Origin: an uncultured Microbacterium sp.
Lineage (GTDB): Bacteria > Actinomycetota > Actinomycetes > Actinomycetales > Microbacteriaceae
Assembly (NCBI GenBank): GCA_913774845.1
Contig: CAJYJO010000002.1
Span: 1 to 64,000, forward strand
Length of the DNA stretch: 64,000 bases
Reading direction: 5' to 3'
Shown: positions 39,954-51,769 of the stretch, piece after piece
Layout of the letters: each line of letters starts with the position of its first letter
How positions within the stretch are numbered: position 1 is the first letter of the stretch
Position numbers and translations under genes: made by a program
Notes under the pieces: generated by a model
Told to the model about the DNA's origin: nothing
Seen by the model: only the letters and a program-made list of their open reading frames with translations
Database searches by the model: none

Positions 39954-40020
39954 GGTCCCTGAGCCCGTCGAAGGGACCGGTGCCGAGGGGGTTCCCGTGG
40001 CTTCGACGGGCTCAGCCACC
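39954..40020. repeat. Two REP-like palindromes in the kdpC-kdpD gap
   Basis: Two 25-bp palindromic copies occupy 39954-39978 (GGTCCCTGAGCCCGTCGAAG followed by GGACC) and 39996-40020 (arms GTGGCTTCGAC / GGGCTCAGCCAC). They belong to the same family as the copies inside kdpB, and both carry a G in the loop where other copies have A or T. Confidence 0.85.
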
Positions 40021-40741: not shown

Positions 40742-43192
40742 TCAGAAACCCGGGAGCAGGCTCACGACGAGGTCGATGAGCTTGATGCCGATGAAGGGGA
40801 CGAGGACGCCGCCGAGCCCGTAGACGAGCAGGTTGCGGCTGAGGATGCTCGACGCGCTCGCCGCGCGGTACTTCACACCGCGCAGGGCGAGGGGGATGAG
40901 CACGATGATCACGATCGCGTTGAAGATGATCGCGCTGAGCACGGCGGATGCCGGCGACGACAGCTGCATGACGTTCAGCACCGCGAGCCCCGGGAACACC
41001 CCCATGAACATCGCCGGGATGATCGCGAAGTACTTCGCGATGTCGTTGGCGAGCGAGAACGTCGTGAGCGCGCCGCGCGTGATGAGCAGCTGCTTGCCGA
41101 TGCGCACGATGTCGATGAGCTTGGTCGGGTCGGAATCGAGGTCGACCATGTTGCCGGCCTCTTTCGCGGCCGAGGTGCCCGTGTTCATCGCCACGCCGAC
41201 GTCGGCCTGGGCCAGGGCGGGGGCGTCGTTCGTGCCGTCGCCGGTCATGGCGACGAGGTTGCCGCCCTCCTGCTCGCGCTGGATGAGGGCGAGCTTGTCT
41301 TCGGGCGTGGCCTCGGCGAGGTAGTCGTCGACGCCGGCCTCGGCCGCGATGGCCTTCGCCGTGAGGGGGTTGTCGCCCGTGATCATCACGGTGCGGATGC
41401 CCATCGCCCGCAGCTCGCCGAAGCGCTCGCGCAGGCCGTCCTTCACGACGTCCTTCAGGTGGATGACGCCGAGCAGGCGGCCGACGCCGGCGGGGGTTGC
41501 GGCGGAGGTGGCTGAGCCTGTCGAAGCCACCGCGGGCTGCGGGGCGCCGGTCCCTTCGACAGGCTCAGGGACCTCGGTTGCGCGCTGAGCGACCTCGGTT
41601 GCGGAGGTGGCTGAGCCTGTCGAAGCTACCGGGGGCTGCGGGGTGCCGGTCCCTTCGACAGGCTCAGGGACCTCGGTTGCAGGCTCGGGGACCTCGGTTG
41701 CGCGCTCGGGGACCACGGTTGCGGCGGAGGTGGCTGAGCCTGTCGAAGCCACCGGGAGCCCCGCGGGCGTCCACGTCGCCACGACCAGGGGCGTGCCGCC
41801 GGACTGGGAGATGGCATCCGTCTCGCCCTGCAGCTGCGCGCGAAGCGCCTCGGGAACGGGCGAACCGGATGCCGCGAGCCAGGCCACGACGGCCGACGCG
41901 GCGCCCTTGCGCACCTGCGTGCCGTCGGCGAGGTCGAGCCCCGACATGCGGGTCTGGGCCGTGAAGGGCACGGGCTCCGCACCCCGGGGCATCTCGGCGA
42001 CGATGCCCTGGGACGCTGCCAGCTCGACCACCGAGACGCCCTCGGGCGTGGGGTCGGCCTGCGACGACAGCGACGCGTACTCGGCCACGAGCGGCGCCCC
42101 GACACCGGACATCGGGACGAATGCCGACGCCCGCCGGTTGCCGTAGGTGATGGTGCCGGTCTTATCCAGCAGCAGGGTCGTGACGTCTCCCGCGGCCTCG
42201 ACCGCGCGCCCCGACATGGCGAGGACGTTGCGCTGCACGAGCCGGTCCATGCCGGCGATGCCGATCGCGCTCAGCAGAGCGCCGATGGTGGTCGGGATGA
42301 GGCACACGAGCAGCGCCACGAGCACGGGGATCGAGACGGGGGACCCTTCGACAGGCTCAGGGACCACCGCGGATGCGATCGGGTTCAGCACCAGCACGAC
42401 CACGACGAAGACGATCGACAGGCTCGCGAGCAGGATGTTCAGCGCGATCTCGTTGGGCGTGCGCTGGCGCGATGCTCCCTCGACGAGGGCGATCATGCGG
42501 TCGACGAAGGTCTCGCCGGGCTTCGACGTGATCTTCACGACGATCCGGTCGCTGAGCACGCGGGTACCGCCGGTGACGGCGCTGCGGTCGCCGCCCGACT
42601 CGCGCACGACCGGGGCGGACTCGCCCGTGATCGCCGACTCGTCGACGGTCGCGATGCCGTGCACGATGTCGCCGTCGCCCGGGATCAGCTCGCCCGTCTC
42701 GACGAGCACGATGTCACCGACGAGCAGGTCGCCCGAGGGGATGGCCTCGACCGCGACGTTCGAGGCGGCGGGGTCGTCGGGCGAGTACGCGACCACGCGA
42801 CGGGCCGAGGTCGTCGTGCGGGTCTTGCGCAGGGTCGCGGCCTGCGCCTTGCCGCGGCCCTCGGCCACCGACTCGGCGATGTTCGCGAAGAACACCGTGA
42901 GCCACAGCCAGACGGCGATGCCGGCGGTGAAGCCGAAGGGGAGGCCCGCGTCGCCGCCGTCGAGGAACGGCTCGGCGACCGCGATCAGCGTCGTCAGGGC
43001 CGCCCCGACCCAGACGAGGAACATCACGGGGTTGCGCCACTGGGCGGCGGGGTTGAGCTTCTTCGCGGCACCCGGAAGGGCGGCGACGATCTGCGCGGCG
43101 CTGAAGGCGCGGCGCGGGGCACTGCTCGGGGCACCGGACCCGTCGACAGGCTTAGGGGCCGGCTGATGGGAAGCGTGGGTGAGCGTGGACAT
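40742..43192 (-). CDS. kdpB: Potassium-transporting ATPase KdpB subunit with REP-derived insertions
   Basis: The P-type ATPase subunit that energises KdpA. Core motifs are intact: the TGES loop ([12 protein letters not shown]), the phosphorylated Asp343 ([13 protein letters not shown]), [18 protein letters not shown] and [22 protein letters not shown]. It is 816 residues, more than 100 longer than usual (about 680-700). The excess includes about 88 residues (roughly 479-566) between TPLVVA and [10 protein letters not shown] in the nucleotide-binding domain, made of alternating [10 protein letters not shown] and [10 protein letters not shown] short [10 protein letters not shown] insert lies in a membrane loop and PKPVDGSG near the N-terminus. 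All are translations of 25-bp palindromes. ATG overlaps the kdpA stop by one base. Confidence 0.95.
41507..41753. repeat. Five REP-like palindromes inside kdpB (nucleotide-binding domain)
   Basis: Copies at 41507-41531, 41549-41573, 41606-41630, 41648-41672 and 41729-41753. Two variants alternate: arms GGTGGCT/AGCCACC and arms GGTCCCT/AGGGACC, sharing the centre TTCGACAGGCTCA. On the kdpB coding strand the first type reads PVASTGSAT and the second VPEPVEGT. Confidence 0.95.
42341..42365. repeat. REP-like palindrome in a kdpB membrane loop
   Basis: One copy (one change from the GGTCCCT-type consensus) that codes [10 protein letters not shown] between two transmembrane helices of KdpB. Confidence 0.9.
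43136..43160. repeat. Degenerate REP-like palindrome at the kdpB N-terminus
   Basis: Four differences in 25 positions from the GGTCCCT-type copy. It codes PKPVDGSG about 12 residues from the start of KdpB, suggesting an older insertion. Confidence 0.6.
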
Positions 43193-51744: not shown

Positions 51745-51769
51745 GGTCCCTGAGCCTGTCGAAGGGACC
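51745..51769. repeat. REP-like palindrome between peptidase and amidohydrolase genes
   Basis: A perfect GGTCCCT-type 25-bp copy, the same sequence as those inside kdpB, with a degenerate half-copy of the GGTGGCT type (GGGGCTCAGCCACC) just before it at 51720-51733. Confidence 0.9.

Follow-up and report, generated by a model that had tools for sequence, protein, structure and literature searches.

How do copies of a short palindrome that is scattered over a bacterial genome come to be read as part of a conserved protein, and why do they gather in one loop of it? The question is raised by the kdpB gene of an uncultured Microbacterium sp., which lies within the 64,000-nucleotide stretch of DNA analysed here (the window). 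Its source is a draft assembly of 3.37 Mb in 55 contigs (G000). The repeat, family A, is a 25-bp palindrome consisting of the core CTTCGACAGGCTCAG flanked by 5-bp arms. With up to two mismatches allowed, the core matches the window 10 times, against 0.19 matches expected. Exact cores start at 41512(-), 41554(+), 41611(-), 41653(+), 41734(-), 42346(+), and 51750(-). One-mismatch cores start at 39959(-) and 40001(+), both within the kdpC-kdpD gap, and a two-mismatch core starts at 43141(+). Palindrome coordinates, taken as the core start minus the 5-bp arm, recover all the positions in kdpB, in the kdpC-kdpD gap, and at 51745 that had been listed in an earlier reading of this DNA (the original prediction). 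The copy at 51745 is probably intergenic because its flanks have different best coding frames. The features are as follows.

39954..39978, minus strand: one-mismatch REP copy between kdpC and kdpD, forming with the next copy an inverted dimer whose cores are 42 bp apart (core match)
39996..40020, plus strand: REP copy with one mismatch, other half of the kdpC-kdpD gap dimer (core match)
40742..43192, minus strand: kdpB, K+-transporting ATPase subunit B, 816 aa, repeats in frame (open frame, NCBIfam match)
41471..41779, minus strand: hairpin loop enlarged to 103 aa (residues 472-574), bounded by TPLVV and GVIHLKD (coordinates by hand from the frame)
41507..41531, minus strand: REP copy in the kdpB loop, GGTGG-arm type, reads VASTGSATS
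41549..41573, plus strand: REP copy in the kdpB loop, GGTCC-arm type, translated on the kdpB strand as VPEPVEGTG
41606..41630, minus strand: REP copy in the kdpB loop, one arm mismatch, reads VASTGSATS
41648..41672, plus strand: REP copy in the kdpB loop, reads VPEPVEGTG
41729..41753, minus strand: REP copy in the kdpB loop, reads VASTGSATS
42341..42365, plus strand: REP copy in a loop joining two predicted membrane helices, net gain of 6 residues, VPEPVEG (core match, alignment, model)
43136..43160, plus strand: degraded REP copy in the N-terminal tail of KdpB, APKPVDGSG (two-mismatch core match)
51745..51769, minus strand: REP copy, probably intergenic (core match; best coding frames of the flanks differ)

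The kdpB frame thus contains six exact copies and one degraded copy of the palindrome. It stays open over its 816 residues, its translation matches the NCBIfam kdpB equivalog with an E value of 9e-285, and TGES, DKTGT, TGDN, and GDGTNDAP are all visible, in agreement with the earlier claim that frame and motifs are intact. The alignment to E. coli KdpB (6hra_B) is broken between query residues 472 and 571, corresponding to chain residues 434 and 437. In an AlphaFold2 model built with 44 sequences (mean pLDDT 70.6), the strands 467-475 and 570-583 flank residues 485-564, a segment below pLDDT 50, and the 15 best structural matches to the model are solved KdpB chains. As modeled, the KdpB loop is a hairpin with a long, predicted disordered turn, which we take to belong to the nucleotide-binding (N) domain. 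Among 43 aligned KdpBs, M. testaceum FXH-28 and Microbacterium sp. CSI-V have the closest ones, at 92 and 93% identity. The loop is 103 residues long, compared with 11, 12, and 16 residues in the close relatives G007, G009, and G020 (44 in G006); the resulting 87-92 extra residues match the gain of about 88 estimated before. Close relatives do not all share a long insertion, since their loops have 11, 12, 16, 34, 44, 60, or 80 residues.

Family A has the size and abundance of a REP, a short imperfect palindrome of 20-40 bp with tens to hundreds of dispersed copies. The genome-wide count that the original prediction had called for gives 78 exact cores across the draft genome (37 forward, 41 reverse), and the reversed control of the core has none. 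Although kdpB makes up only 0.07% of the genome, it holds 6 of these 78 copies. The arm positions 1 and 2 beside the core form Watson-Crick pairs in 73 and 77 of the 78 copies, where 38 and 40 are expected, and the base adjoining the core is C/G in 45 copies and G/C in 28. Because these two positions pair though their bases vary, the palindrome is kept while the arms change. At the third position covariation is weak (54 pairs against 44.6 expected); the fourth and fifth show plain conservation. Like REPs, family A is mainly extragenic: in a rough test with 240-nt flanks, the best GC3 frame is shared by both flanks, with no inner stop, for 8 of 51 clusters in G000, and two of these 8 apparently intragenic clusters lie in kdpB. 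The 42-bp core spacing of the inverted dimer in the kdpC-kdpD gap recurs twice within kdpB, and many clusters in the genome are single or same-strand. The five loop copies would probably come from multiplication of an inverted pair.

The same turn is expanded by different repeats in other species. Of 149 Microbacterium genomes searched, 104 have a KdpB match at E 1e-70 or better, and loops were obtained for 103 of these, 100 by pattern and three by eye (11 residues in G011, 12 in G095, and 12 in G096); the partial KdpB of G016 gave no loop. Most loops are short, with 11-12 residues in 60 of the 103 and 11-13 in 61, and 24 exceed 20 residues. These 24 carry family A (10), doubtful family A (3), family B (3), family C (4), family D (3), or a 15-bp tandem repeat (1), and three loops of 20 residues or fewer also contain family A. 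Here family A in loops means the repeat of the window or its CTTCGACAAGCTCAG variant, and the doubtful cases (G019, G114, G151, and G085) were assigned by eye. No stop codon occurs inside any KdpB match listed for the genus genomes.

Genus-wide, family A has a patchy distribution, present in 85 of the 149 genomes with at most 379 copies per genome, and its reversed control gives one match (G134). Across the bacterial family it was found in 22 of 100 genomes drawn, our own genome included. Family B, CGTTTCG[AT]CTCG..CTCGCTCAACGA, occurs in 77 of the 149 genomes with up to 264 copies (reversed control, 0), and the 89-residue loop of an additional genome, Microbacterium sp. GCS4 (L067), contains family-B repeats by eye. 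Family C, TGTCGGGAG-N9-ATGNCGG, is rarer, with 45 copies in 13 of the 149 genomes and at most 12 per genome; the reversed control of the strict pattern gives 15 matches, never more than one per genome. Among the 45 listed copies, 18 form inverted pairs 44-45 bp apart, including the loop pairs of G022 and G081. Four loops contain family C, three of them by the strict pattern and that of G021 only by a looser 9-base form. Family D consists of TGGCTGA..GATGGCGG pairs in the loops of G139, G140, and G149, assigned by eye. Because D shares the layout of C, the two may be one family, D being defined by eye only. Families A, B, and C, judged by eye, are three different, unrelated sequences. The 15-bp VLESA tandem repeat expands the turn in G089 (L261), and the named record L066 holds the same loop. 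GTSSGTSVG-like repeats expand the turn of G139 (L268) beside family D. In named genomes outside Microbacterium with pattern-parsed KdpBs, most loops have 7-15 residues, and the long ones have 18 (Pseudoclavibacter), 27 (Streptosporangium), and 53 (an unclassified MAG). Arcanobacterium has a longer loop that the pattern did not parse, and two Bradyrhizobium values of 45 are pattern artefacts.

Like the REPs and REPINs associated with RAYT, as far as the consulted parts of PMC3116915, PMC2817692, and PMC8266576 describe them, family A reaches high copy number and forms inverted dimers. Unlike them, it is accompanied by no Y1 transposase match in the genome: PF01797 has 0 matches in G000 and none in 148 of the 149 genus genomes. 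The same search finds matches in five of 14 control genomes. The one genus genome with a match, G056 (L200), has 0 family-A copies, and mobilisation by RAYT is thus unsupported. No conserved GTAG or CGTC end is seen in the 78 copies read by eye with 12-base flanks, and no viral contig has an exact match to the 25-mer pattern. A replication-strand bias was also considered and dropped, as the copies looked one-sided among the matches listed but are mixed along the contig in the full list of the single-contig genome G163 (32 forward, 68 reverse).

The repeats at the turn have changed many times. On a KdpB tree of 102 sequences, with the loop columns removed and the partial G146 left out (quick LG+G4, SH-aLRT support only), family A including doubtful cases changes 14 times, B 3, C 4, and D 2. 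The strongly supported branches alone force at least 8 changes for strict A, 2 for B, 3 for C, and 1 for D. Each change may reflect a gain, a loss, or an exchange of genes. Strict A requires 11 changes, compared with a mean of 12.4 for shuffled labels, so it is scattered, yet its distribution hardly differs from random. Within one supported group (97), G130, G005, and G081 have end branches of 0.023-0.024, and their loops carry A, B, and C, respectively. The loop of G044 contains an inverted family-A pair of which its sister G055 retains only the first few bases, a remnant such as an in-frame deletion would leave.

Presence in the loop follows the abundance of a family in the genome. Family A is in the loop of 13 of the 100 pattern-parsed KdpBs, whose genomes have a median of 50 exact copies, compared with a median of 2 for the remaining genomes (p=6e-7). 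It occurs in 11 of 22 genomes with at least 20 copies, compared with 2 of 78 others (Fisher p=3e-7). In the other 11 A-rich genomes the loop shows no strict A match; two of these loops hold B and, by eye, four have possible remnants. Family B is found in 3 of the 100 parsed loops, in genomes with 35, 67, and 127 copies, which is 3 of 20 parsed genomes with at least 20 copies against 0 of 80 others (p=0.007). Two further B-rich genomes, not parsed by the pattern, have no family B in the loop, and the link to copy number is weaker for B than for A.

We consider it highly probable that the repeats in kdpB belong to a dispersed palindromic family that appears, duplicates, and decays in Microbacterium genomes, and that insertions into genes persist where an open frame is preserved and the protein can bear a flexible extension. 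The main tolerated site in KdpB would be the hairpin turn (E. coli residues 434-437), with less frequent use of the N-terminal tail and of other loops, and insertion itself would presumably be untargeted. A bolder form of this reading, that the turn is an 'insertion port' which repeatedly captures different mobile palindromes, that some of the segments tune the pump, and that the repeats spread without a Y1 transposase, seems to us rather unlikely. If true, new disordered protein segments would regularly arise from repeat invasion.

The recurrence at one turn could also reflect a hot spot at the DNA level, with a mobilisation machinery that prefers this sequence and tolerance as a secondary matter. 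The excess of exact copies in kdpB would fit this, as would the expansion of the same few codons by several families and by simple tandem repeats such as VLESA in G089. However, families of different sequence would require one common target, the codons of the turn differ among the sister genomes compared, and copies also occur elsewhere in KdpB and in other proteins, so that we regard a hot spot as improbable. Slightly harder to defend is a selected regulatory tether, in which the disordered loop would have been domesticated to modulate the pump, for example through N-domain motion. The loop presumably lies in the N domain, and such loops arise repeatedly. According to the consulted part of PMC9651954, this domain is mobile and, in inhibited states, touches the A domain. 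Nevertheless, loops of 11-12 residues are found in sister genomes of those with 28-60 residues, the loop sequence is unconserved, and the genomic abundance of family A predicts its presence there, all of which speaks against a tether.

Tolerance by the protein is also suggested by the reading phase. In 103 kdpB frames there are 53 family-A copies with at most two mismatches: the hairpin holds 28, the N-terminal tail 12 (some of which may lie upstream of the true kdpB start codon), and other parts of the protein 13. Fifty-one of them share one phase, reading P/A-S-T-G-S-G/A or P-E-P-V-E-G, and two read LRQAQ (G144 and G154). The LSLSK and FDRLR phases are absent from the 53, and the phase containing TGA is impossible in an open frame. 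The peptides found (PSTGSG, ASTGSA, and PEPVEG) are small, polar, and disorder-prone, and the phase would be filtered toward such peptides, presumably by selection on the protein. Loop-mates and clade-mates are non-independent, so the 53 copies are not 53 events, and the bias is a strong tendency rather than 53 independent trials. Selection for frame had originally been argued from a repeat length indivisible by 3; that length alone is no proof, and it is the shared phase that speaks for the claim. The spacing of consecutive copies is divisible by 3 in 14 of 15 cases in loops, 6 of 23 elsewhere in G000, and 32 of 50 elsewhere in G163. The last value makes spacing weak as the main proof of frame, partly because some G163 arrays outside the loop are themselves coding.

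Repeats also occur in the N-terminal tail of KdpB and in what we take to be membrane-helix loops and an A-domain loop, labels that come from the model and the topology of KdpB. An insert at the site of the 42341 copy is seen elsewhere only in G073 (+5) in the 103-genome alignment. In G155 (L195), kdpB has a 183-residue insert at reference position 23, a very long N-terminal extension of the open frame.

Decorated kdpB genes look functional, judging from their catalytic motifs and substitution rates. All 103 KdpBs have DKTGT and GDGTNDAP; TGES is missing only from the partial G146 and TGDN only from G116. Outside the loop, dN/dS is 0.06-0.16 in ten decorated pairs (median 0.110) and 0.05-0.10 in nine undecorated pairs (median 0.058); the pairs were hand-chosen and G087 of the undecorated set has a repeat copy elsewhere in kdpB. 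The higher values in decorated pairs make a slight relaxation or a clade effect possible. The loop peptide is presumably made, and the pump presumably works. The central idea of the original prediction, that dispersed repeats have been turned into protein sequence, is borne out by in-frame copies within an apparently functional gene.

The phase bias also bears on a role at the RNA level, in which mRNA hairpins would tune KdpB output or protect the message, with the peptide as a by-product. The 301-nt repeat segment folds at -163.8 kcal/mol against a shuffle mean of -134.5, better than 100 of 100 shuffles (z -5.6), and the arms covary genome-wide. But any palindrome cluster folds well, a bias of 51 in 53 is unexpected if RNA alone mattered, and presence and family differ between sister genomes; we therefore find an RNA role very improbable as the main explanation. 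An artefact of short-read assembly or collapse, conceivable in a draft of 55 contigs, is hardly credible, because the frame is intact and in-frame repeat loops of the same kind occur in other assemblies, including the single-contig G163.

Tolerated insertion of palindromes is not new in kind. The consulted portions of the literature describe in-frame palindromes both as Rickettsia palindromic elements (RPEs) and as intragenic GTAG/CGTC REPs. RPEs (Ogata et al. 2000, 2002) are palindromic repeats of several families that lie in frame in conserved Rickettsia genes (PMC2229807, PMC10969869), and a guanylate kinase that carries an RPE is translated into an active enzyme whose affinity for its substrate is altered (PMC2229807). 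The Microbacterium repeats resemble them in occupying conserved genes in frame and in belonging to several families. By description, they differ in being 25-bp units and inverted dimers in Microbacterium, whereas RPEs are longer, about 150 bp (PMC10969869), and reside in obligate intracellular bacteria. GTAG/CGTC REPs are palindromes of 20-40 bp that occur single, paired, or clustered, and their intragenic clusters in genes of Thauera and R. conorii encode 43-82 residues (PMC3733652). Different REPs lie at about the same recB site in X. campestris and X. oryzae (PMC3733652), so the reuse of one site by different REPs has a precedent. Family A is likewise short, single, paired, or clustered, with coding clusters. 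However, its core has no GTAG or CGTC tail, and in Microbacterium several families share a single site across many genomes; Actinobacteria are not among the phyla that the consulted part of PMC3733652 gives for the two superfamilies. Since RepRanger reports candidate REPs in Arthrobacter, Acidipropionibacterium, and Acidimicrobium (PMC12306157), REPs in Actinomycetota are not new. The main text of that paper contains neither 'Microbacteri-' nor 'intragenic', and the likeness drawn here is by description only.

Among the open-licence papers listed by our searches, we found no report of these families in coding genes of Microbacterium, nor of one turn reused at such scale. Beyond the original prediction, our analysis adds the other repeat families at the same turn in other species, the further proteins affected, and the known kind to which the insertions belong. 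In closely related Microbacterium genomes, different repeats have changed many times at a single position in an enzyme with solved structures. Therefore, the rate at which mobile DNA becomes protein, the phases that survive, and the functional effect are all measurable, and the KdpB loop is a natural test bed for repetitive DNA turning into protein.

KdpB is not the only protein affected. In G000, family A also lies in frame in GcvT, a 2-methylcitrate/citrate synthase, and TreY, so that, as with RPEs, in-frame insertions are found in several conserved protein genes. The GcvT site is variable among relatives: of the best 30 of 147 matching genomes, 22 loci were parsed (8 unparsed), and family A is present in 7 of these, our own genome included. 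The GcvT of G000 (L145:770-2389, contig C22) has a long family-A derived segment. On contig C8 of the same genome, the frame L024:1423-2655 has LRQAQGP and AQGPDA-like repeats near its start and no NCBIfam family match at 1e-10. These are perhaps in-frame copies; the true start possibly lies downstream, in which case the repeats there would be extragenic. Ten array regions were inspected (nine in G163, one in G078), and three, all in G163, have continuous coding flanks. A 23-bp-period array in G163 (L309) lies outside a continuous coding frame. The tandem arrays at L304, L306, and L307 of G163, mostly of 24- or 36-bp period, are coding and read PSTGSG​TQ-type repeats in the same phase. Of the three array-bearing frames in G163, one looks like an ABC-type ATPase and one helicase-like, judging by their motifs.
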